Positions 3,600-17,971 of a DNA stretch of 45,333 bases are shown piece after piece (position 1 is the first letter of the stretch; the number at the start of each line of letters is the position of its first letter). The notes under the pieces were generated by a model. It ran no database searches and was not told the origin of the DNA. It was given only the letters and a program-made list of their open reading frames with translations. Position numbers and translations under genes: made by a program. The stretch is from Mogibacterium sp. (lineage in GTDB: Bacteria; Bacillota; Clostridia; Peptostreptococcales; Anaerovoracaceae), in contig JAFWFU010000039.1 in the NCBI GenBank assembly GCA_017515425.1, positions 1 to 45,333 of the forward strand. The letters run 5' to 3'.

Positions 3600-3638
3600 G
3601 ATTCTCAATAGGAGCATATCAAGGGCTTTGCATGTTTG

Positions 3639-3656
3639 TTGTTGAATTTTTATAAA
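3639..3656. repeat. putative attachment site, left (18-bp direct repeat)
   Basis: TTGTTGAATTTTTATAAA is identical to 14546-14563. Its T-run followed by A-run composition matches the AT-rich target preference of Tn916-type integrases. It lies 138 bp outside the arm sites next to int. Confidence 0.65.
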
Positions 3657-3828: not shown

Positions 3829-5022
3829 TCACGCTGTCAATCGCTTCATTTCAGCCCTCGCGGAGTCAAACGAAGCGTGTGCGTAGTAGTTCAGCGTCAT
3901 GGTGATGTTCGCGTGACCCATGATGTACTGCAAGGCTTTGGGATTGATGCCCGCATTGGCTAAATTGGTGCAAAAGGTGTGACGCAGGACATGGGCTGAA
4001 AACATCTTCGGCAAAGGCGTTTCGTGGCACTTATTGTACTTCTTAGCAAGATTGAGAAGCGTCATGGCGTAGTTTGATGCTGTCTTGGGGTAACCGTCAC
4101 GCTTCAGAAACAGGAAATCGGTATAGCCCTCAATGATGACGGGCATTACTTTTTTCCGGTTGTCCCGCACTCGCAGAAACGCCTGATAGACATTCTCGCT
4201 CATGTGGATCTGGCGTATGCCGCTTTTGGTCTTGGGGGTGGAAATGTAGTAGCCCTTTTCCTTACAGCGTAATAGCTGGTGGTCTACATGGATTTTACGT
4301 TCCTCAAAGTCCACATCGGCGGCGGTCAATCCGCACAGCTCGGAAATGCGAAGTCCTGTTCCCAGCAGTATCACGATCTCGTCATAGTATTTGCAGTAGA
4401 CGCTATCGTTTTTGACAAAGGATAACAGGCTTTCTTCCTGCTCCGGGGTAAGAGGTTCCTTCGGCTCCGTGTCGTCCTCCAATACATCGGTGATCGGGAA
4501 ATCAAACGGATTTTTACGCACACAATCGTTTTGTATCGCTGTGTAAAACGCGGCGTTCAGGGATCGCTTGTCGTTGCGGATGGTGCTGAACGCAACTCCC
4601 TTTTCCCTCATTCTGAGCGCCCACTCTTTCGCGTCTGACATTTTCACGCTGTCGATGGGGCAGGCTCCGATGGGATCTTCTTTCAGCATACGCATGAGGC
4701 GGCTGCGGCTCACGGTGGTATTGTATTTCACATTCCCGCGGTGGCGTATCTGCTGCGCGTATAGCTCGCAGACGGTCATCTTCTTGCCGAGGGTATCTAT
4801 CCCGTCGTCGATATCCCGCCGTATCTCCTGTTCCTTTTCCCTTAGAGAAATATCCTCCCGTTTCCCTGCGGGCGTCTTATCCGTAGGGACAATCTTCCAC
4901 GAATAGACAAACTGCGGCTTGCCAAAGGCGTCAACATATTTGTAAGCATATCTTCCGTCTTTTCTCTGGATCTCTCCTGACCGCAAAATGCGATTTTTGC
5001 TGTTTCGTCTCTTTTCTGACAT
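3829..5022 (-). CDS. int: Tn916-family tyrosine integrase
   Basis: A 397-residue tyrosine recombinase that excises and integrates the element; Tn916 Int has about 405 residues. The start at 5022 follows GGAAAGGAGC and gives the family N-terminus MSEKRR...; a longer frame to 5106 lacks support. Residues 1-75 form the arm-binding domain (SGEIQRKDGRYAYKY, FVYSWKIV), residues about 80-180 the SAM-like core-binding domain, and residues about 190-395 the catalytic domain. The catalytic residues are present: R225 in GTGLRISEL, K264/K266 in TPKTKSG, H344 and R347 in HVLRHTF, H370 in GHANIT, and the tyrosine pair 379-380 in LNYYAHA. It is preceded by xis and followed by the arm sites and element end, exactly the layout of the int end of Tn916. 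It appears intact. Confidence 0.95.
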   Translation of the reverse strand: MSEKRRNSKNRILRSGEIQRKDGRYAYKYVDAFGKPQFVYSWKIVPTDKTPAGKREDISLREKEQEIRRDIDDGIDTLGKKMTVCELYAQQIRHRGNVKYNTTVSRSRLMRMLKEDPIGACPIDSVKMSDAKEWALRMREKGVAFSTIRNDKRSLNAAFYTAIQNDCVRKNPFDFPITDVLEDDTEPKEPLTPEQEESLLSFVKNDSVYCKYYDEIVILLGTGLRISELCGLTAADVDFEERKIHVDHQLLRCKEKGYYISTPKTKSGIRQIHMSENVYQAFLRVRDNRKKVMPVIIEGYTDFLFLKRDGYPKTASNYAMTLLNLAKKYNKCHETPLPKMFSAHVLRHTFCTNLANAGINPKALQYIMGHANITMTLNYYAHASFDSARAEMKRLTA

Positions 5023-5109
5023 TTTAAAATGCTCCTTTCCTTCAGACGGAAAGAGCCCTGATATGCCGATTGCCATTATAGCACATACAGGGCTCGACTT
5101 CCACATTTT

Positions 5110-5319
5110 TTATATCGCGTCCAGACTGTCTATCACCTTTTCAAACTGCTTGCGCTTGATTTGAATACGGTTGCCGTTCATAATGACCCAGCCAGCGGCG
5201 GGGTTTTCTTCCGCCAATTTCCGCAGCTTGTTCTCGCCTATGCGGAAATAGCGAGACGCCTCCTCGATAGTAAGCGTATATTTTTCCCAGATGGGAATAT
5301 CTGTCTTATTCAAAATCAT
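5110..5319 (-). CDS. xis: Tn916-type excisionase
   Basis: A 69-residue DNA-bending protein that directs the integrase toward excision. The start at 5319 follows GGAGGAAGGAG with ideal spacing. The sequence [20 protein letters not shown], then [15 protein letters not shown] and [14 protein letters not shown], is nearly that of Tn916 Xis, a winged-helix MerR-like fold. It ends 87 bp before int on the same strand, so the two are probably co-transcribed. Its start overlaps the end of the parB-like gene by 14 bp, suggesting a parB-xis-int transcript. Intact as far as can be seen. Confidence 0.93.
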
Positions 5320-6195
5320 CTCCTTCCTCCAATTTGAGAATATATTGTTTCGGTTCCTGCATGACTTCAATGACCTGAGCCTTGTAGTCCGGCTTTTCCA
5401 ATAAGTCGGGGAAATTGTCAAAGAGAACGTCGCAGCATTCAATCATATTTCGCGCCACATAACGCAGGCTTACCATCGCCGAGTCCTCGTCGGCACGTTT
5501 GGGTTCCTTCATATCCTCGTAACTTTTGTCGATTGCCGCGTAAGCCTGTTGCCAGCGCTTCGTATTGTTAGCTTTGGGCTTCTTTTCCGGGATTGCCCTG
5601 AGCTGTTCTGCTTTTTCCCGGCGTTCCTCCGGCGAAGCGCGGGCGACTGCTGCCACGTCGGTTTCACGAGGCTTAAACTTTCCAAGGAGCAGGTCGTTCT
5701 TAATGCCAGGAAGCACTTCTTCGGCGGCGTCAACTCCCTGAGCATACCAATCCGCTCGCATCACATAGCTCTCGCTGGTATTTGTTTCGGTTGCAATACG
5801 AGAACGTGTTCCATGTCACTTTCGCGGGGTAAAGTGTACTGATTGCCAAGATCAAATGTTGCGTGCTTCTCGGCAGCGTAACGCTGTCCAATCAGGTATT
5901 TCTTCTGCTGGGGCGTGAGGTTTCGCCGTCCGAGCTGGTTCTTGCAAATCCACGAGAGCGCTTCGTATTTATTGTTGAACGGTTTTTCATGGATGCGGAA
6001 CTCAATGTTCGGATGCTCCAGTGCGATGCGGTAGCGGTTATGACCGTCCACAATCGTGTTGTTCCACACGATGATAGGTGTCAGGACAAGCCCTTCCTCC
6101 AGGATGTTTTCTTCGAGCTGCGAAAGCTCGTCCTCGGTCAGAGGCGGGCACTTCGCCTCAAACTCCGGATCAATTACCAAAATGCGCTTCATCAT
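5306..6195 (-). pseudogene. ParB-like nuclease/partition protein, broken by a frameshift
   Basis: The 5' part (6195 to about 5812) encodes an N-terminal ParB domain: LVIDPEFEAKCPPLTEDEL, IIVWNNTIVDGHNRYRI with the ParB-type DGHNR box, then LTPQQKKYLIGQRY. At about 5812 the frame changes. The second frame continues in register with SRIATETNTSESYVMRADW and AAEEVLPGIKNDLL, then runs 150 residues to the stop at 5306. Joined, these make a roughly 290-residue protein like the ParB-domain proteins of Firmicutes conjugative elements. A TGA directly upstream in the second frame confines the shift to a few codons, and I see no slippery heptamer, so mutation or a sequencing error is more likely than programmed frameshifting. 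The start at 6195 follows GGAGG. It heads the parB-xis-int unit. Confidence 0.8.
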
Positions 6196-6266
6196 AATTC
6201 CTCCATTTCTTTTTAGATATATCGTTTGTTTTGTGATTTCCTGTTTTGCTGTGACGCTTTTGCGCG

Positions 6267-7364
6267 AAAATGTCCTCTCACCCTACAACGGACATTTTTA
6301 CGCCGAATGTCAGGTATCGTCTGAAAAAATGTTTGTTTTTTCTGACGGCAGCCAGGGCAGAAAACCGATTTCGAGGTGACGTAGGCTGAGTTCATTTCGT
6401 GATTTTCTGTTTGGCTGTACCGCTTTTGCGGCAAAATTGTCCTCCCACTTTTCAATGGACATTTTTTCGAGCTTTTTAATAACCCATCTGCTAAAATATT
6501 TTTTTGATAAGGCATAACGTTATGCCGGTCTGGAATTGTCCTCTCACCCTACAACGGACAATTTTTATGCGTTTGTGGGGTATCGCCTGAAAAAACTTTG
6601 CTTTTTGCTGACGGATGCCAGGGATGAAAACCAATTCCGCGGCGACGAAGGCTGAATTCATTTCCTGATTTTCTGTTTGGCTGTACCTCTTTGGCGGCGA
6701 GATCCTCCTCCCACTTTTCAATGGACATTTTTTCGAGCTTTTTCAACCGTCGACAAAATAGATTTTTGCTTTTTTAATAGTCCATGACGTAATGCTGTTC
6801 CGATCTTGCCCGAGTCCTCGGCAACACTACCTGCGGGAAATTCAAAACGGTGCGCTATGTCCGGAAGCCGGATTCTCTGGACGAGCTGACGATCGCCGGA
6901 GCAGAAAACCAATTTCAAGGTGACGAGGGCTGGGTTCATTTCCTGACCTCTTGTTTAGCTGACACTTTGAGAAGACTGAATTTCCGTATCCCTTTGCGGC
7001 GAGAATGTCCTCTCACCCTACAACGGACATTTTTTCGAGCTTTTTAAACCATCCGCATAAATTTTTATGCTTTTTTGATAGGTCATGACGTTATGCATTT
7101 CCGATTTTGCCCGTGCCCTCGGCAACACTGCCTTCGGAAAATTCAAAACAGCGCGCCATGTCCGAATACCGGAGTTTTCGGACGAGCTGACGGCTGCCGG
7201 AGCAAAAAACCGATTCCGAGGTGTCGAAAGCTGAGTTCATATTGTGTCCCCCTCACTTTTCAATGGACATTTTTTTGCATAATGTCAGGTATCGTCAGAT
7301 AAAAATTCTGATAGTCTATGGCGTTATGCGGCTATGAAATTCTCCTCCCACCCTACAACGGACA
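6267..7364. repeat. array of seven TGTCC-N14-GGACA hairpins plus four CATGACGTTATGC palindromes
   Basis: Seven dyads of 24 bp (25 in copy 6) lie at 6271, 6438, 6537, 6704, 7007, 7245 and 7341. They alternate between two loop types: A, with CTCACCCTACAAC, and B, with CCCACTTTTCAAT, in the order A-B-A-B-A-B-A. Copies 1 and 3 have perfect 8-9 bp stems. Start-to-start spacings are 167, 99, 167, 303, 238 and 96 bp, so the first two A-B pairs form a 266-bp higher-order repeat. About 50 bp after four of the dyads comes a second palindrome: a perfect GGCATAACGTTATGCC at 6511, with variants at 6782, 7082 and 7315. Minus-strand frames echo peptides such as KLEKMSIEKWEEDLAAK and KMSVVGWEENFIAA, but with stop codons in most copies. 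This 1.4-kb gap upstream of the parB-like gene has no intact gene. Confidence 0.7.
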
Positions 7365-7648
7365 TTTCTGGAAGCTTTTTTACCCATTGCCAAAAACTTT
7401 TTTGCTTTTTTCTGATGGTGCGAATCTGCTTGCTGACCGTTCCTATTGCAGGTCGGTGAAGGGCGTTTTCGCTTCGCAAAGCTTGATCGAGCAAGAAAAA
7501 AACACCGCCAAAGCAGACTATGACAGCGGTGCTGTTCGTCAGTCTGGCTTTGTACGGCGCTTGGCGGACTTCTAAGACAAGGCTGGATTTAGGGAAAACT
7601 GAGAAAGATACGTTTGTGGCAAGCAAGGTCTTTTGGAGCCAAAAGACA
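7365..7648. other. intergenic segment between the repeat array and the IS
   Basis: No convincing gene. A minus-strand frame runs through it into the IS end, but it has no start signal and no recognisable domain. CCGCCAA near 7506 can pair with TTGGCGG near 7562, giving a possible long-range hairpin. It is probably decayed element DNA. Confidence 0.3.
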
Positions 7649-7691
7649 GCGGGGCTGTCGCATTTGAATAAATGTGGCAGCCTCTTAACTT
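7649..7691 (+). repeat. IS inverted repeat, left
   Basis: 43 bp, an exact reverse complement of 9543-9585. It also folds on itself: GGCTGTCGCATTT pairs with AAATGTGGCAGCC across a 4-nt loop, with two G-U-type pairs. Each end is therefore a stem-loop as well as a terminal repeat and may also block read-through transcription. Confidence 0.9.
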
Positions 7692-7799
7692 GGAAAAAGC
7701 AGACAGTCTCCGACAGGATCAAGCGATCCAGTCGTCGTCAGTCTGCTTCCTATTTTTTTCGCACAACAACCAGCGTTGCTTATTCAGTTTTTGTCTTCT

Positions 7800-9420
7800 T
7801 TAGGTTACCTCGTACAAATGAGTTCCGAGTTTTCCGTTCTGTATCCTTCTATGAAGATTATCTATGTTCTGGGCGATCGCCATCAGCACGCTTTCGGCGT
7901 AGACGTTCTCTTGGCCACGACACATGAATTGTCGAAAGGCTTCATCTTCTTTCCAAAGTGCGAAAGCTCCTTCTGCCTGAATGCTCCGGTTGACTCTGAG
8001 CTGTACGCCTTCTTCACTTGTGATCCGATCCAGACATTCTTTACGCTGCCTCTCGAATTTTCTGGAAACTGTGAGCTTTTTGAATCGCTCTTCTTCAGGG
8101 ATCTTCCAGTTCTTACCTTTCAAGCACTCAGCTCTGTGTGGGCATCCTGCGCATTCATAACACCAATATACAGTTTGTTTGCGGACATATCCGCTTGCAG
8201 TTCTCTGATGGTGTATACCGTGTGCGTAAAGTCTGCAGCCATTCTTACATGTGTAATAGTCTCCATCGGGATTATATGGCATATTCTCCCTGCGGCTGAT
8301 GTCTGTTTTGTATTTCCTTGTCTTGGAAATCTCGTAATTTGCAGGCTTGATCATGGCCAGGATACCTCTGTCCTCAAGGAAGCTGTAGTTTTCCTCGCTT
8401 TCATATCCTGCATCCGCTACGACTACAGGATATCTGTGATGAAGTGCTTTCTCCATGCCGGTCAGGAATGGTATTAAAGCGCTTGTGTCGGCAGGCTTCG
8501 GAGACAGAGTCAGCCATGAGATGTATCCTGAGTCGACTCCAAGCTGAAGGTTGTATGCCGGCTTCAGCTGGCCGTTGAGCATCGCATCTTCTTTCATCCT
8601 CATGAAGGTCGCGTCAGGATCAGTCTTTGAGTAACTGTTGCGATCTCCGAGAACTTCCAGCTTACGTGAATACTCTTTGAGTCTTTCGATATATTCCTCC
8701 AAAAGCTCGATGTGCTTCTGCAGCTGTGTCTTGCGGCATCCGCTTCCGTGCACGAATTCTATACCTTCTTCCTCTTTTATCTTGTACAGTTTCCTGAGAA
8801 TTTTGCTGAGATGCTTCTCTTTGACCTGGCCTCGCCATATCTCTCTGAGACCGTATGTCTCAACACACTCCTGAACCAGCAGCGCGGTCTTGTCCAGAAG
8901 CTTTGCCTGATTCTTTGTTACAGCTTTCTTCCAGACGAATGTGTATTTTGTTAGCGTTGGCCTCTATCTTCGTTCCGTCGATGAAGATCTCTTTGCCGCT
9001 GATCTCTCCGAGATCCATCAGGTAATTTACTGTCATGGCAAGATACTTATCTGCGACCTGTCCGAAATGAAGCGATCGAAACCGTGCTATGGTTGCATGA
9101 TCGGGTGCGGACTTACCTTCAAGAAGATACATGTAGTTGATGTCTCTCCTGCATGCTTTTTCAATGCCTCTTGAGGAGTAGTTGTGTTCATGGTAGGCGT
9201 ACAGCATTATCTTCAGCATCTGACGAGGGCTCACCTGATTTTCCTTCACTCTGGAATAGGTCGAATACAGATCTTTTAGATCCAGTTCCTCCACAAATTG
9301 ACCCAAGAGCCGCACGCAGTCGTTGTCGGGAATGACATGCCCGATTTCGAGCGGAAGTTTTAGTTGATACGGCCTCGAAAACAACGTATAATTTTGCCGT
9401 AAAATGTTTTGGTTTATCAT
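7800..9420 (-). pseudogene. IS1182-family DDE transposase, single-base frameshift
   Basis: The N-terminal frame (9420 to about 8950) has the IS1182 opening (MINQNILRQNYTLFSRPYQL, then DLYSTYSRVKENQVSPRQML) and the first catalytic Asp in FIDGTKIEANANK. At the A-run complementary to TTTT at 8946-8949 there is one base too many. Removing one A turns KIHIRLEES into the expected KYTFVWKKA and joins the second frame. That frame carries VVADAGYESEENY (second Asp), the Cys-rich CYECAGCPHRAEC segment, and QAEGAFALWKEDE (catalytic Glu), and ends at 7800. Joined length would be about 540 residues, normal for the family. As it stands the protein is split before two of the three catalytic residues. Confidence 0.9.
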
Positions 9421-9440
9421 ACTTACATTTTACCACCAAA

Positions 9441-9476
9441 CTCCGCGTCCAAGAGGTGCGGAGCTTTTTGTTTTTT
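9441..9476 (+). terminator. terminator inside the right end of the IS
   Basis: CTCCGC (9441-9446) pairs with GCGGAG (9458-9463), followed by CTTTTTGTTTTTTG. On the + strand this is a good rho-independent terminator, placed just outside the transposase start (which is on the minus strand). Confidence 0.6.
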
Positions 9477-9542
9477 GATAAAACCATGCATTTGCAAGGG
9501 CTTCAGGTTGCTTGCATTAAAAGAGACTACCAACAGGCGGGC

Positions 9543-9585
9543 AAGTTAAGAGGCTGCCACATTTATTCAAATGCGACAGCCCCGC
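9543..9585 (-). repeat. IS inverted repeat, right
   Basis: Exact reverse complement of 7649-7691; see that entry for its internal fold. Confidence 0.9.
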
Positions 9586-9849
9586 GGCTTGATGGGGAAA
9601 ACTCCTCATACCCCTCTGAACGATTTTTACAAAATCGGCTGTGCGCCGTTCCGGCGCTTTGTACAAACTATAGTGTGTCAGGCACCCGCTGAAATCCAGT
9701 GAACATCTGTTGTGTGAGTCGATAAAATGTAGTCTGTGTTGTTTTATTCCTGCCTGTTTCAACCGACCATCTCAAGCGCCATTTTGGAAAAATGTAAAAA
9801 CCACCCCTGTTGACAAAAATAAAAATGTGTGAAAAAGTGCTAATCGCGC

Positions 9850-9878
9850 TTGTTTTTTCTTTGGATTTGTGTTACACT
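9850..9878 (+). promoter_or_regulatory. promoter of the AAA ATPase gene
   Basis: TTGTTT (9850-9855), a 17-bp spacer and TACACT (9873-9878), with TG one base before the -10. The predicted mRNA start is about 30 nt upstream of the ATG at 9915. Nothing else is recognisable between the IS end (9585) and here. Confidence 0.55.
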
Positions 9879-9914
9879 ATTCTTGTAATTGTGATTGTGA
9901 TTGGGGGGACGGCA

Positions 9915-11279
9915 ATGCTCCAAAGAAAGATTTACAAACGAATCGAAGAATTTTACAATGGCAGATCTAACAAGGCGCTGATGATCGTCGGTGCTCGCCA
10001 GGTCGGCAAATCCTTCATTGTGGAAGAATTCAGTAAAACTCATTATGAAAGCTTCATAAAAATGGATTTTATTACGAATCCTGAATATGTCTCCGCCCTT
10101 GCCGGAGCAGGGAGCACGGAGGATATCCTTTTGCGTCTTTCCGCATTGTTTGGTGATCAAATGATCCCCGGCAAGACGATGATCTTTTTCGACGAAGTGC
10201 AGGAGTGCAAAGAACTGATTACGCAGATCAAATACCTCGTGCAGGACGGCACCTACGACTATATTCTCAGCGGGTCACTGCTGGGAACCGTCTTCCGTGA
10301 TATCGTTTCCGCGCCGGTCGGTTATATGGATATCATCCAGATGTACCCTCTGGACTTCGAGGAGTTTGCCATTGCCAACGGTGTGGGTACAAAAGTCCTT
10401 GGTGCGCTGCGGAAGTCCTTTGAGACAAAAGCGCCCGTGGATTCTTTCGTCCACGAGCGTATGATGCAGCTGTTTGAATTGTATCTCATCGTCGGCGGAA
10501 TGCCGGCTGCCGTTTCCGCTTACCTGGAAACCAAAAACCTGCGCCGCGTTGCGGATGAGCAGAACTCAATCCTACGGCTGTATCGGCGCGACATCTCAAA
10601 ATACGATGAACAGAATCGGCTGTACTTGAACGAGATTTTTGACCTAATTCCCAGCGAACTAAATGCAAAAAACAAGCGATTCATCCTGAAAAATCTGAAC
10701 GAGAAAGCCCGTTTCGACAAGTACTACGACAGCTTCCTTTGGCTGAAAAATGCAGGCGTAGCACTTCCTGTAAACGTGGTGAACGAACCGAAGGTTCCTC
10801 TGCTTTTATCCAAGTCGCAGAATCTGTTCAAGCTCTTTTCCAACGATGTCGGCCTGCTGGCCGCCCAGTACGGCGGTGAGATCCAACTTCGGATATTGCA
10901 GCATGAGACGGCGATTAATTTTGGTTCCATCTATGAGAATGTCGCCGCCGAGGAACTGACCGCCCACGGTTATACACTCTATTACTACAACAGCAAGAAA
11001 TTCGGCGAGCTGGATTTCGTGATCGAGGAAGACGGTAAGGTTCTGCCCATCGAGATCAAGTCTGGCAAGGATTATTATCGTCACAACGCCATGGACAATG
11101 TATTGAAGCAATCTGATTACGGTATCGAAGAAGGGTACGTTTTCTGCGGCGGCAACATCGAGCAGATAGATAAAATCACCTATTTCCCAATCTACATGCT
11201 CATGTTCCTGCAAAAGAAGGAGCTGCCGGAGGTAATCCTGTTTGAGACGGATTTTTCCGACCTGGGAGATTTGAAATAA
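9915..11279 (+). CDS. AAA ATPase with DUF4143 domain
   Basis: A 454-residue protein of the AAA_14/DUF4143 family. The start ATG at 9915 follows a GGGGGGAC purine run and the promoter at 9850-9878. The upstream in-frame start at 9810 would lie before that promoter and is rejected. The Walker A motif is GARQVGKS at residues 26-33 and Walker B is MIFFDEVQE at about 86-94; a sensor-like YILSGSLLG follows. The C-terminal DUF4143 region has the usual GSIYENVAAEEL and a nuclease-like ELDFVIEEDGKVLPIEIKSGK segment, where the D/E...EIK pattern resembles a PD-(D/E)XK core. The family is very common in anaerobes and on mobile DNA; its function is not established, with proposals including defence and NTPase switches. 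Here it is a one-gene cargo module between the IS and an integrase relic. Confidence 0.9.
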   Translation: MLQRKIYKRIEEFYNGRSNKALMIVGARQVGKSFIVEEFSKTHYESFIKMDFITNPEYVSALAGAGSTEDILLRLSALFGDQMIPGKTMIFFDEVQECKELITQIKYLVQDGTYDYILSGSLLGTVFRDIVSAPVGYMDIIQMYPLDFEEFAIANGVGTKVLGALRKSFETKAPVDSFVHERMMQLFELYLIVGGMPAAVSAYLETKNLRRVADEQNSILRLYRRDISKYDEQNRLYLNEIFDLIPSELNAKNKRFILKNLNEKARFDKYYDSFLWLKNAGVALPVNVVNEPKVPLLLSKSQNLFKLFSNDVGLLAAQYGGEIQLRILQHETAINFGSIYENVAAEELTAHGYTLYYYNSKKFGELDFVIEEDGKVLPIEIKSGKDYYRHNAMDNVLKQSDYGIEEGYVFCGGNIEQIDKITYFPIYMLMFLQKKELPEVILFETDFSDLGDLK

Positions 11280-11551: not shown

Positions 11552-12535
11552 TTGAATAACCAAAAGAAACATCTGTTTGACGTATTGAAACAGATGCTTG
11601 CCAAAGCTTTTAAGAGACAGTGTCCGATGATGGAACGGAAAGGGACTTACGATATGCAAATGCTTGATTGGAGAATCTGTTCTTCTTGTAAAGACAGTTG
11701 CAGATACTGTTTCGCTTCAGAAAAACTGCCAGCTGTTGGCTTGGATCAAGAACGGATTATTCTGGATAAAATCAAAAATTCGAATATCGAGGCAGTAAAC
11801 ATAACCGGCGGAGAACCACTGATTGACGCCGAACGCTGCTTTCGGATTATAGATTCACTGCATCATTCCGGAAAATCAGTCTACCTTTCGACAAATGGCT
11901 ACCAGGTTTTAGAATATTTAACTCATATTAGAGAAACAGTGTCCCTACTTGGGCTTCCGCTTGATGGTCCGGACGAGGAGTCCAATATGGCCTGTGGCCG
12001 CAATCGAGGCTCCTTTGGACAAGTTTTGCAAATCCTTGAAAGTCATGCTGCGAAGGATATACCGATAAAGATTGGAACTGTAGTCACAAAAAAGAACCTT
12101 TCCTGTCGCAATTTGGAAGGTCTTGCGGAACTCATGGATCACCACCCCGTAAATATCTGGCGAATTTATGAGATGCTGCCGGAAAACCGCGCTATACAAA
12201 ATCGGGCTGATTTAGAGCTCGCTCCGAAAGACCTTGAGGAACTCATCCATATCGTACGGCGAATCTCTGAAAAAAAACACCGCTGGCATGTAGAACTTGT
12301 AACAAGACGAATGCGTAATGCAAATTATATGATTATCCGACCAAACGGAACAGTAATAATACCAATTGATGACGGAAATCAAGTCGATGAAGTTTTGCTC
12401 GGCAGTCTGCTGGATATGTCCCTTCCTGAATTGATAGAAAAATGGAATAAAGTAGCACGAGAAAGAAACGATATCTTTTATTCAAAGCGGAGATTATCGG
12501 ATCTCGGCTTTAATACCCTGGAGGTGAAAGGATGA
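11552..12535 (+). CDS. radical SAM enzyme, viperin-like features
   Basis: A 327-residue radical SAM protein. The cluster-binding motif is C46-x3-C50-x2-C53 followed by F (CKDSCRYCF), and the SAM-binding GGEP is at 86-89 in VNITGGEPL. Later features resemble viperin-like enzymes, which make ddh-nucleotides: a GRNRGSF segment, IKIGTVVTKKN, and NIWRIYEMLPENRA. The C-terminus has a SPASM/twitch-like IIRPNGTVIIP segment without auxiliary cysteines. The start is uncertain: the TTG at 11552 has a poor ribosome binding site. The ATG at 11653 after AAAGGGA would give a protein starting MQMLDWRICSSC, which suits the family better. It ends in a 4-bp ATGA overlap with the DUF4062-Nudix gene, so the two are translationally coupled and likely act together. 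The substrate is unknown; a nucleotide is my inference. Confidence 0.85.
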   Translation: MNNQKKHLFDVLKQMLAKAFKRQCPMMERKGTYDMQMLDWRICSSCKDSCRYCFASEKLPAVGLDQERIILDKIKNSNIEAVNITGGEPLIDAERCFRIIDSLHHSGKSVYLSTNGYQVLEYLTHIRETVSLLGLPLDGPDEESNMACGRNRGSFGQVLQILESHAAKDIPIKIGTVVTKKNLSCRNLEGLAELMDHHPVNIWRIYEMLPENRAIQNRADLELAPKDLEELIHIVRRISEKKHRWHVELVTRRMRNANYMIIRPNGTVIIPIDDGNQVDEVLLGSLLDMSLPELIEKWNKVARERNDIFYSKRRLSDLGFNTLEVKG

Positions 12536-14214
12536 AAACAATACGGGCCTTTATGGCATCCTGTAACGATATGATGAAATACCGTGCAGCAGCAGAGCAG
12601 ATAATTGAAGAAATCAACTGTTCGATGGGTGAACACTTCGGGTTTTCTGTTCAGCTGTTTCGTTGGGAAAAGAATGCGATACCGGAAATGGGCAGGCCCC
12701 AGGACATAATATTCGAGCAATCGAAATTCGACTCTATTGACATATTTGTTGGGATTATCGGAGCTCGTTTCGGGACCCCCACAGGAGGCTTTGACGAAAA
12801 ACAACGTGAATATGAATCCGGAACAGAAGAGGAATTTGAACGTGCCTATTACAATTTCCGGAAAACCGGGACGCCTCACATAATGATCTTCCGCAACGAA
12901 ACGCCGCTAAAACCCGGAAGCTTCAATGTGGAACAGTATACCAAGGTTCAGAATTTTCTGCGCCAATTTGACGCGTCCAATGAAAAACCGGGGCTTTTTC
13001 GGCGCTTCAAAAGCTTACCGGATTTCCAGAAGGACTTTCGTTTGGCAATTACAAAAAGCGTATTAAACATCTTTGATCAGAAAGAAAAAGAAACAGGCCA
13101 GTCTCCTGCGGATCTTTCAGATCCCTATAAAGAAATAGGCTTTCAGCAATTGTTTGTTACAGAAACTAACAACCTTCGAGGAATCATGAAAAGCAAGGCG
13201 ATATCAGGTTCCTCTGTTGTATGCTTGCTGGCGAAAACGGGCAATTCATTTTTGGGATCTGTTGGAAATCGCTATCTCGACCTTCTGATTAAGAATGTAC
13301 AAGAAAACGGCACGGTTCGGATATTGCTGCTTAACCCGTGGACTCCTGACGCACTTTCGGTCGCGTTTACCGAGACCGGAGATACCGGAATGCTTCAACA
13401 TCTTTTGCAGCATGATATGCAATCTCAGCAAGTGATTGAAGCGTACAGAAGGACCAAATGGTTTTCTTCAAAACTGATGGATGTCCTGCAGGAATATGAT
13501 GTAATTCGTCAAAAGTATCCGCAGATTGAGTTGCGCTTTCTTGACGCAGACGTGTCAGCCTCTGTTTTGATTACTGACCACACGCTTTTCTTTGAGCCCT
13601 ATTATAATTATTGCCATAGTAAAAGAATGAATAAGATAGCATCCACGTTTGAAATAGCCCTTTCCGAACGACATCCTCTTTATAGTGATTCTTTTCAGAT
13701 GTTCGATCTGCTATGGGTCAACGCGATTTCATATGACGAGTTGATCAAGGATGAAGCTCAGCACATCATTCGGCTGTCTAACTATATTGACGCAATTTCC
13801 GTCCGTAACACGCTCTTCTATGTAGGTATCCATGCTCTAATCCGAAACGGTGATCGTTTCCTTGTTCTTCACCGAACAAAAACAAAAACATATATGCCTG
13901 ATAAATGGGATATACCCGGCGGCAGTATGGAGATGGGAGAAACTCTGGAGGATGCGGTAGTGCGAGAGGTCTTGGAGGAAACGGGCCTCAAAGTCAAACC
14001 GGGCAGGATTCTTTATACATTTTCAAATTTTTCAGAGCTTCCAAATCGACAGACACTTCAAATTGTGATTGCATCTGAGGCAGAGCAGGGAAGCGTTCTT
14101 TTGAATCCTGCTGAACACAGCGAATACCGCTGGGTCACGGTCGGAGAAGCTTCGGGGCTTCCATTGATCAATTTCCTGGAAAGCTTCCTTGCGTCAGGTA
14201 TTGAAATCTGGTAA
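12532..14214 (+). CDS. DUF4062 - middle domain - Nudix hydrolase fusion
   Basis: A 560-residue three-part protein; GGAGGTGAAAGG precedes the ATG at 12532. Residues 1-175 are DUF4062-like: IRAFMASCNDM, IDIFVGIIGARFGTP, and SGTEEEFERAYYNF. This fold is related to TIR/deoxyribosyltransferase domains and is often the sensor or NAD-type effector part of defence proteins. Residues about 190-410 resemble a DUF5919-like/PLD-fold region (VRILLLNPWTPDA, IELRFLDADVS, LFFEPYYNYC) but show no complete HKD motif. Residues about 425-560 are a Nudix hydrolase with a complete box: G464-x5-E470-x7-R478-E479-V-x-E482-E483-x-G485-L486. Nudix enzymes cleave nucleoside diphosphates linked to another group. The coupling to a radical SAM enzyme suggests that one makes and the other clears or senses a modified nucleotide. 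No close relative with a known role is recognised. Confidence 0.85.
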   Translation: MKTIRAFMASCNDMMKYRAAAEQIIEEINCSMGEHFGFSVQLFRWEKNAIPEMGRPQDIIFEQSKFDSIDIFVGIIGARFGTPTGGFDEKQREYESGTEEEFERAYYNFRKTGTPHIMIFRNETPLKPGSFNVEQYTKVQNFLRQFDASNEKPGLFRRFKSLPDFQKDFRLAITKSVLNIFDQKEKETGQSPADLSDPYKEIGFQQLFVTETNNLRGIMKSKAISGSSVVCLLAKTGNSFLGSVGNRYLDLLIKNVQENGTVRILLLNPWTPDALSVAFTETGDTGMLQHLLQHDMQSQQVIEAYRRTKWFSSKLMDVLQEYDVIRQKYPQIELRFLDADVSASVLITDHTLFFEPYYNYCHSKRMNKIASTFEIALSERHPLYSDSFQMFDLLWVNAISYDELIKDEAQHIIRLSNYIDAISVRNTLFYVGIHALIRNGDRFLVLHRTKTKTYMPDKWDIPGGSMEMGETLEDAVVREVLEETGLKVKPGRILYTFSNFSELPNRQTLQIVIASEAEQGSVLLNPAEHSEYRWVTVGEASGLPLINFLESFLASGIEIW

Positions 14215-14497: not shown

Positions 14498-14545
14498 GAT
14501 GCTGATAACCTGTGAATGTGCTTGTTTTTAAGGCTTGCTGGATTA

Positions 14546-14563
14546 TTGTTGAATTTTTATAAA
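14546..14563. repeat. putative attachment site, right (18-bp direct repeat)
   Basis: TTGTTGAATTTTTATAAA, identical to 3639-3656. It marks the right boundary of the Tn916-like element. Confidence 0.65.
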
Positions 14564-17140: not shown

Positions 17141-17971
17141 ATGAACAAAGACTTCCAAAAGATTGGGCCTACGGTCACTATGCTCGTGCCGTATGATTGT
17201 AATAATCTATGCCCATTCTGCGTTAATAAAAAGGAATACAGGGATATATCGAGCTTTGATTTGGATAGGTGCTATCAATCGCTCGACTTGATGAATAGGG
17301 TTTTCCCTCATAATGATATAGTCCTTACAGGCGGAGAACCATTGGCGAATTTGGAAACTCTCCGAGACATACTGAGTCATATTGAAGAGGGGCATCATAT
17401 ATATATCAATACTACGCTTCCGGTTTCGGAGGGCAGCAGCATAGAGAAGGTGGCGGATTTCCTGAATGCCCATGCGGACAGAATTTCCTGTGTCAACGTA
17501 TCAAGGCATTTGAAACACTATGTCAGGGAATGCTCCGACGAGATATTCAACCTTCTGAAAGTCAAGACTAGAATAAACTGTGTGGTCTTTGAGGACGCCA
17601 AGGAAGAAGCGACAAAAGAGAAACTTATTGCATTTTTAGACAGGTTCAAGGGTCGTGATATACAGCTTCGAGCCAATTATTCGTTGCTGACTCTCGAGAA
17701 TGTATTTGATAAGGAAAACGACAATCTCTTTAAACTTATTTCGGAAGTATGCGAGTACAAATGCGACCTTGAGATAGAGAAATTCCGCACGGGATATGTC
17801 TTTGAAAGAAATGGGAGCAGGATTACATATCATAAAACCCTGCCATTTGCAAAGATTGACGGCGTGATTGGAGATATAATTATCCGCCAGACGGGTCTTA
17901 TTTATGACGATTGGAATGAGTACGGAGCCGAGCTGAATATAAATGATTTGGCAGGCATAAGATATAAATAA
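17141..17971 (+). CDS. radical SAM protein, probably SOS-regulated
   Basis: A 276-residue radical SAM enzyme of unknown substrate. The cluster motif is C20-x3-C24-x2-C27 (CNNLCPFC) and the SAM motif is GGEP at 64-67 (VLTGGEPLAN). It has a MoaA-like core followed by a short C-terminal part with a lone CEYKCDLEIEK pair and no SPASM cysteine cluster. The start ATG has only a weak ribosome binding site (CAGGGATG). Its promoter carries a near-consensus LexA box, and lexA follows 121 bp downstream on the same strand, so it is probably induced by DNA damage. The similar size and motifs might suggest spore photoproduct lyase or a nucleotide-modifying enzyme, but I do not recognise it as SplB. It is only distantly like the radical SAM protein at 11552. 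Confidence 0.8.
   Translation: MNKDFQKIGPTVTMLVPYDCNNLCPFCVNKKEYRDISSFDLDRCYQSLDLMNRVFPHNDIVLTGGEPLANLETLRDILSHIEEGHHIYINTTLPVSEGSSIEKVADFLNAHADRISCVNVSRHLKHYVRECSDEIFNLLKVKTRINCVVFEDAKEEATKEKLIAFLDRFKGRDIQLRANYSLLTLENVFDKENDNLFKLISEVCEYKCDLEIEKFRTGYVFERNGSRITYHKTLPFAKIDGVIGDIIIRQTGLIYDDWNEYGAELNINDLAGIRYK

Follow-up and report, generated by a model that had tools for sequence, protein, structure and literature searches.

Prokaryotic viperins (pVips; also SAND, radical-SAM dependent nucleotide dehydratases) are makers of chain terminators, and the K-x-N motif is part of the viperin substrate pocket. A conserved tyrosine of viperin has been proposed as proton and electron donor (PMC9642334). 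The DUF4062 family was described in a May 2026 preprint (PMC13174449) as the TIR-like NADase of an antiphage defence system, Swarozyc; its member KpSwz acts by abortive infection, has the catalytic residue E97 and is activated by a phage portal protein. Here we analyse a locus where a gene resembling each of these two kinds stands side by side. It lies in a stretch of 45,333 nucleotides from Mogibacterium sp. (assembly GCA_017515425.1, contig JAFWFU010000039.1, positions 1 to 45,333; hereafter the window), and comprises open reading frame 1 (ORF1), for a predicted viperin-like radical SAM enzyme, and ORF2, for a protein with a DUF4062 domain, a middle domain and a Nudix domain. The pairing of a DUF4062-middle protein with a viperin-like gene is conserved, and the two genes may form an antiviral module.

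The intact DUF4062-middle proteins stand beside a viperin-like gene in 3/3 cases (the window and the genomes G184 and G758), and in two gene orders. In G184 (locus L002, the same as L013) the DUF4062-middle gene occupies 602-1918 and the radical SAM gene 1928-2773, with a gap of 9 bases; the corresponding positions in G758 (L012, the same as L014) are 152-1402 and 1405-2247, 2 bases apart. In both, the radical SAM gene is directly downstream, which is the reverse of the window's order. These two relatives were found via ORF2 or its alignment, the radical SAM gene being then recognised next door, and their proteins are intact and 47-48% identical to each other. A broken version of the pair is present on a conjugative plasmid of Sinorhizobium meliloti (CP050560, L004 2423-6801). 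This plasmid entered the search via ORF1, and the middle domain was then found 3 kb away (E 2.7e-12), as an ORF of 238 amino acids (aa) upstream of the radical SAM gene with an IS66 element in between; the radical SAM protein lacks its N-terminus there, and DUF4062 itself was undetected at this locus. Conserved adjacency had been set beforehand as a test in a preliminary description of this DNA, made by a model from the letters alone, and it was borne out by the three intact cases plus the broken one.

No radical SAM gene matching the profile of the group (A4) was found in the DNA available around 28 other DUF4062 loci (0/28; 27 of them distinct, L089 repeating L021). At least 900 bases are available on both sides in 16 of these control loci, and 3/3 versus 0/16 corresponds to about 1 in 1000 by Fisher's test. 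One control, L116, was missed by the A3 profile at 1e-3 and entered through tblastn; the L117 neighbour set was excluded. Searched with the whole of ORF2, 297 genomes of the order gave three matches, namely its own genome, G184 and G123; the last (L003) was rejected as a pair member, its match running through the Nudix domain alone. The DUF4062-middle part matched only its own genome among 398 of the phylum, its own, G184 and G758 among 296 of the family, one place in 6 genomes of the genus of G184, and 11 loci in the genome_contigs collection, two of them G184 and G758. From the other side, the radical SAM group profile gave strong matches among 305 family genomes to G184 and G758 (E ~1e-130 and 1e-127), and 12 further places among the matches listed were at 2.9e-23 or worse, with no DUF4062-middle match in the DNA around them. 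The pair was seen in none of the 20 other same-genus genomes among those listed in the 296-genome family search. In the phylum of a Methylococcales genome, DUF4062 was matched in 10/299 genomes, and among the matches listed none passes position 213 into the middle domain.

Scans with ORF1 as a single protein returned 64 stretches from genome_contigs and 46 from viral_contigs, none of which was confirmed, and the same was true of 89 stretches obtained with alignment A1 from viral_contigs. A weak radical SAM locus lacking DUF4062 (L011) was the only one obtained with alignment A2, and the Escherichia coli radical SAM enzyme described below gave, as query, one very weak place. Two loci, L025 and L026, are canonical viperin-type genes without DUF4062. 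With ORF2, 7 phage records were matched, through the Nudix domain only.

The positions of the two genes and their domains are listed in Table 1. As the preliminary description had read them, the genes overlap by 4 bp, sharing the ATGA at 12532-12535, and both frames are open at their coordinates. The TTG start of ORF1 is doubtful, the relatives starting about 30-35 residues further in when aligned; ATG codons at 11627, 11630 and 11654 are alternatives near the relatives' beginnings. With the TTG start, the first residues of ORF1 (11552-11626) would be a short basic segment (MNNQKKHLFDVLKQMLAKAFKRQC), possibly an amphipathic helix. A promoter scan gave 5 sites against 6.1 in shuffled sequence, that is, no excess.

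ORF1 carries the motifs CxxxCxxC (C46, C50, C53), GGEP, IKIGTVVTK and W-R-I-Y, and matches Pfam Radical_SAM at 1.4e-14. The only kind of PADLOC family that it matches is pVip (4.8e-28, 96.3 bits), which is also matched by the radical SAM relatives in G184 and G758 (3.4e-32 and 2.5e-32), and the NCBIfam viperin model NF038283 ranks first among 55 families. The lead of viperin models over every other NCBIfam model is about 25 bits for ORF1; for the two relatives it is about 30 bits or more. In a PDB profile search with three members, the best nine chains were five viperin, viperin-like or RSAD2 structures and four named 'Radical SAM core domain-containing protein'; SkfB was the next chain below those nine, and the peptide-modifying SkfB and YydG both rank after the viperins. 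A tree was made from 22 of 27 rows, namely ORF1, the E. coli enzyme, G184 and G758, nine canonical viperin-type and nine other radical SAM sequences. The first four and the canonical viperins together split from the other radical SAM rows with support of 98/96, and a branch with support of 87/98 sets the nine canonical pVip rows apart, which leaves ORF1 outside the canonical clade. In the tree of all 27 rows the S. meliloti fragment joins ORF1, the E. coli enzyme, G184 and G758, and so does HxsC, in an open fork.

Residue columns were counted in one alignment of 5 rows of this new group, 9 canonical rows and 13 other radical SAM rows. K173 is found in 5/5, 8/9 (the ninth being R) and 1/13 of them, respectively, W203 in 5/5, 8/9 and 4/13, K/R204 in 4/5, 9/9 and 3/13, and Y259 in 4/5, 9/9 and 2/13. 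Y259 is the presumed counterpart of the conserved tyrosine of viperin, and any role of K173, G175 and R204 is likewise putative. The likeness to pVip extends to a single radical SAM domain, a similar length, the best family match, the motifs K-x-[G/N/T]-T-V-[VA] and W-[KR]-x-[FY], a conserved Tyr before the C-terminus and the occurrence in mobile DNA. Unlike the canonical enzymes, the new group has a motif [GA]-[LI]-P-[LIV]-[DE] at 134-138 (5/5, against 0/9 canonical rows, which carry Ser in place of the Pro, and 0/13 others), and the partner of ORF1 is a DUF4062 protein, not a kinase.

The three-part architecture proposed earlier for ORF2, with a DUF4062 domain and a full Nudix box, was confirmed, DUF4062 scoring 26 bits against a Pfam cut-off of 24.7. 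Residues Y94, S96, G97, E99, E100, E101 and F102 are invariant across the 8 sequences of the DUF4062 alignment; the catalytic Glu reported for KpSwz is E97. Both proteins begin with a DUF4062 domain, whose conserved Glu region may correspond in the two, and continue into an auxiliary part. KpSwz is one protein whose auxiliary domain, of helix-turn-helix/winged type, binds the phage portal (PMC13174449), whereas ORF2 has a different, unclassified middle domain, a Nudix domain and a radical SAM partner. A word search of the PMC13174449 text gave 0 occurrences of 'radical SAM' and of 'nudix', and no radical SAM partner appears in the portions consulted. The preliminary description had cast the DUF4062/middle part as infection sensor or effector; NAD+ hydrolysis, of which it made no mention, is now reported for DUF4062 (PMC13174449).

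The middle domain has no match in Pfam at E<=10 or in PADLOC, and its PDB matches are at chance level (0.33 or worse). The label DUF5919, or any other Pfam name, was therefore dropped; a phospholipase-D-like fold was considered and not confirmed. A profile built from the domain in four loci (the window, G184, G758 and that of the S. meliloti fragment) matched these and no other locus examined. The Nudix box of the window is complete as read (G464-x5-E470-x7-R478-E479-x2-E482-E483-x-G485, consensus GX5EX7REUXEEXGU). Because the Nudix domain is missing from the two intact relatives, the window version alone having one, the mechanism cannot be centred on it, contrary to the earlier suggestion. 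The earlier interpretation is partly supported, the exceptions being 'DUF5919' and this central place of Nudix.

Table 1. Features of the window around ORF1 and ORF2, with positions, strand and basis
Feature	Positions	Strand	Basis or remark
ORF1, predicted viperin-like radical SAM enzyme	11552..12535	+	327 aa counted from TTG
CKDSCRYC, CxxxCxxC [4Fe-4S] motif (C46, C50, C53)	11687..11710	+	sequence; column-by-column alignment
ORF2, DUF4062 - middle domain - Nudix	12532..14214	+	560 aa
DUF4062 (TIR-like) domain, aa 10-105	12559..12846	+	Pfam; contains Y94-x-S96-G97-T-E99-E100-E101-F102
Middle domain, aa 191-419	13102..13788	+	profile; common to window, G184, G758 and S. meliloti fragment; candidate sensor
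Nudix domain, aa 432-540	13825..14151	+	Pfam NUDIX PF00293 2.3e-21; box 13921-13989 (G464-L486)
AAA_14/DUF4143 ATPase	9810..11279	+	Pfam AAA_14 2.8e-26, DUF4143 3.5e-28; PADLOC PDC-S01 5.6e-192
Tn916-type tyrosine integrase	3829..5106	-	Pfam Phage_integrase 6.6e-35, Integrase_DNA (Tn916) 1.2e-31
Tn916-type excisionase	5110..5442	-	Pfam Tn916-Xis 2.3e-19
Left 18-bp end repeat, candidate att site	3639..3656	+	core of 29-nt direct repeat 3628-3656
Right 18-bp end repeat, candidate att site	14546..14563	+	core of 29-nt direct repeat 14535-14563

The explanation that we favour, with a confidence that stops short of even, is that the two genes form a transferable antiviral module, with ORF1 as the nucleotide-modifying enzyme and ORF2 as an NAD+-hydrolysing effector under the control of its middle domain. 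ORF1 would most likely act on a nucleotide to give a modified nucleotide, dehydrated like the viperin products or a variant of that. By analogy with the NADase activity and abortive infection reported for another family member, the DUF4062 domain of ORF2 would hydrolyse NAD+ after activation. The middle domain would hold ORF2 off and may sense either infection or the ORF1 product, if the latter reaches ORF2, and infection or the radical SAM product would in this way switch on NAD+ hydrolysis. The Nudix domain, in the window version only, may bind or destroy a nucleotide, either the ORF1 product or the ADP-ribose (adenosine diphosphate ribose) released by DUF4062; destruction of ADP-ribose would block the cell's rebuilding of NAD+.

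A more specific version of this proposal, which we regard as rather doubtful, takes the viperin-family enzyme as a signal maker. The modified nucleotide would then serve as a second messenger instead of, or besides, ending chains; the middle domain of the TIR-like NADase would read it, and Nudix would be the receptor or the off-switch. If true, this would add to CBASS, Pycsar, Thoeris and type III CRISPR a further nucleotide-signalling type of immunity, one that relies on radical SAM chemistry. The proposed logic resembles CBASS and Thoeris in combining a nucleotide-making enzyme with an NAD-depleting or membrane effector, and differs in that the pair has neither a CD-NTase nor a signalling TIR and in that the signal is hypothetical. 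Nudix domains in effectors have a precedent in Cap16 of CBASS, where mutation of the NUDIX domain did not abolish toxicity (PMC10419184). The conserved pair would join the viperins and the DUF4062 proteins, the latter just reported as NADases, in one mechanism, and it would raise the question of what a viperin-like product does besides ending chains, in a testable system of two genes whose catalytic residues are clear in both partners. In the open-access literature no paper was found that describes a viperin-like radical SAM and DUF4062 pair; viperin and DUF4062 are mentioned together only where viperins appear among other immune genes, and none joins 'prokaryotic viperin' with 'nudix'.

Several observations weigh against the module that we favour. 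ORF1 scores 81.4 bits on the viperin equivalog NF038283 and so misses its cut-off of 180, as do its relatives (G184 100.9, G758 96.2, E. coli 84.9), whereas the M. hollandica pVip reaches 270.5 bits. 

The new group made up of ORF1, the E. coli enzyme, G184 and G758 is supported by only 44/26 in the 22-row tree, and the approximately unbiased (AU) test leaves a place of ORF1 among non-viperin radical SAM enzymes unrejected (p 0.42). A radical SAM protein of E. marmotae (L044), which the tree places with the non-viperins, reaches 90.3 bits on the pVip model, against 96.3 for ORF1. Because of this near-equal score, the AU test and the position outside the canonical clade, ORF1 is, as judged from its sequence, termed viperin-like and not a pVip; the earlier claim of a viperin-like enzyme stands with that restriction. 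The Asn of the canonical KxN is kept in 9/9 canonical rows, 1/5 of the new group and 4/13 others, ORF1 having G175, and with the Asn replaced in 4/5 of the new group the substrate may therefore differ.

On the side of ORF2, the DUF4062 domains of G184 and G758, at 16.8 and 15.3 bits, fall below the Pfam cut-off, and PADLOC gives no match for G184 at 1e-3. The call in both relies on alignment: they are 29 and 28% identical to the protein of the window, and all three share SG[TM]EEEF. Since the middle domain has no known class, 'sensor' is a guess by position. A DUF4062 protein from Acidobacteria (L017), aligned by tblastn over residues 5-391, has no radical SAM neighbour; the comparison of its middle part by profile was unconvincing (probability 12%), and it has no match with the middle-domain profile A7. 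The sample consists of three intact pairs, all of one family, plus one broken pair, and no relative of ORF1 was found in the phage records searched.

Among the other explanations, the one that survives best, although we consider it unlikely, is that the locus holds two independent weapons. ORF1 would make a chain terminator against phage polymerases, ORF2 would be a separate NADase triggered by a phage protein via its middle domain, and Nudix would clean the host pool of the terminator. Canonical viperins indeed work without an effector according to the review literature, KpSwz is triggered directly by the phage portal protein (PMC13174449), and the complete Nudix box of the window is as expected of a hydrolase. 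Two different plasmids of E. coli moreover carry closely related radical SAM genes without DUF4062, as part of an operon of radical SAM, deoxynucleoside kinase and NudI (L005 6983-8980 and L117 4983-6993). The two operon versions have diverged (proteins 89, 81 and 88% alike), and the full L005 trio was present in 2/5,426 E. coli genomes in the near search. This operon resembles our locus in having a radical SAM enzyme of the ORF1 group (L/I-P-L/I-D/E signature) coupled to a Nudix enzyme, and differs in having no DUF4062 protein, a Nudix enzyme encoded as a separate gene and a kinase; with NudI here and the Nudix fusion in the window, a Nudix enzyme has thus been joined to this radical SAM group by two separate routes. 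Against independence stands the adjacency itself: the radical SAM gene adjoins 3/3 intact DUF4062-middle proteins, in both orders, and other DUF4062 types lack it in the DNA examined. That it accompanies the middle domain specifically suggests dependence between both genes, and this tight linkage is the main reason why we prefer coupling.

Quite improbable, in our judgement, is a nucleotide-modifying pathway without an immune switch, in which the radical SAM enzyme modifies, Nudix trims and DUF4062 acts as a deoxyribosyltransferase to give a nucleoside-like product. The nearest radical SAM enzyme outside the pairs does stand with a deoxynucleoside kinase and NudI, and the DUF4062 protein of L017 adjoins a putatively PfkB/nucleotidyltransferase-like ORF. 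DUF4062 is also distantly similar to nucleoside 2-deoxyribosyltransferases (PMC13174449); the members tested elsewhere, however, are NADases (same source), and no transporter or further biosynthetic gene was seen in the element or beside the relatives, within the contigs examined.

We hold it to be very unlikely that the pair now lacks a function and is decaying as cargo of an old mobile element. Decay would fit the transposase, which is divided between two ORFs, the second integrase-like sequence, of which a remnant lies upstream of ORF1, and the broken S. meliloti copy. Against it, the reading frames of the two window genes run uninterrupted for 327 and 560 codons, with intact cysteine, Nudix and Glu motifs, and the two relatives, 47-48% identical to one another, are intact as well. 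The least probable explanation, that ORF1 modifies a peptide or protein and, for example, activates or silences ORF2 in this way, draws on the rank of SkfB and YydG next after the viperins in PDB searches and on the latitude of the AU test, and is opposed by the lack of a C-terminal cysteine cluster (SPASM) in ORF1, the lead of about 25 bits of the viperin models and the absence of any noticed precursor-peptide-like ORF between ORF1 and ORF2, which overlap.

The setting in a mobile element, as claimed in the preliminary description, was recovered with a Tn916-type integrase and excisionase and a flanking direct repeat (Table 1). The ORF1-ORF2 pair is the last cargo of this Tn916-type element, the length of which would be 10.9 kb. 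The 18-bp core of the repeat has exactly 2 occurrences in its own 1.73-Mb genome at up to 1 mismatch and 0 in the reversed control. On the right flank, an aminopeptidase gene is present in 27/30 same-genus genomes, and in eight stretches compared the likeness to the window begins at or right of 14673. For the left flank in 12 relatives, DNA was there for one only (160 bases), and no empty site was seen in the DNA covered. The AAA/DUF4143 neighbour named earlier is present as an AAA_14/DUF4143 ATPase; no such gene was seen beside the pair in G184 (L013) or G758 (L014), and it is taken here as a neighbour.

Canonical pVip genes elsewhere also have neighbours of note. On a viral contig (L082 1201-3383, IMGVR_UViG_3300010280_000258) a pVip gene (7e-37) is followed by one for a protein with four hydrophobic segments, a putative four-helix membrane protein. 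Its C-terminal part looks weakly Nudix-like by eye, with BLAST similarity spanning 37 residues (E 6e-4, three sequences being searched), which Pfam and PADLOC do not confirm. PADLOC matches beside canonical pVips, weak or of candidate-defence type, were PDC-S29 (L051 3894-4565, 3e-13) and a SEC-C/DUF4145 type (L052 3933-5237), and L041 1278-2696, beside another, gave weak CARF/CasR matches (8.7e-6).

Other sequences of the window were noted in passing. A second, unrelated small radical SAM protein (276 aa, 17141-17971) lies outside the element, with no PADLOC family and a very long tree branch. Nested in the element, at 7649-9585, is a DDE_Tnp_1_6-type transposase in two overlapping-frame ORFs (7800-8753 and 8860-9420), bounded by perfect 44-nt inverted repeats. 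Upstream of ORF1, the segment 11396-11433 is 74% like the integrase-gene part 3950-3987, and its minus strand would read like an integrase remnant. The region 6266-7411 contains 6-7 imperfect repeats with the core CCTCTCACCCTACAACGGACATTTTT, within two larger direct repeats.

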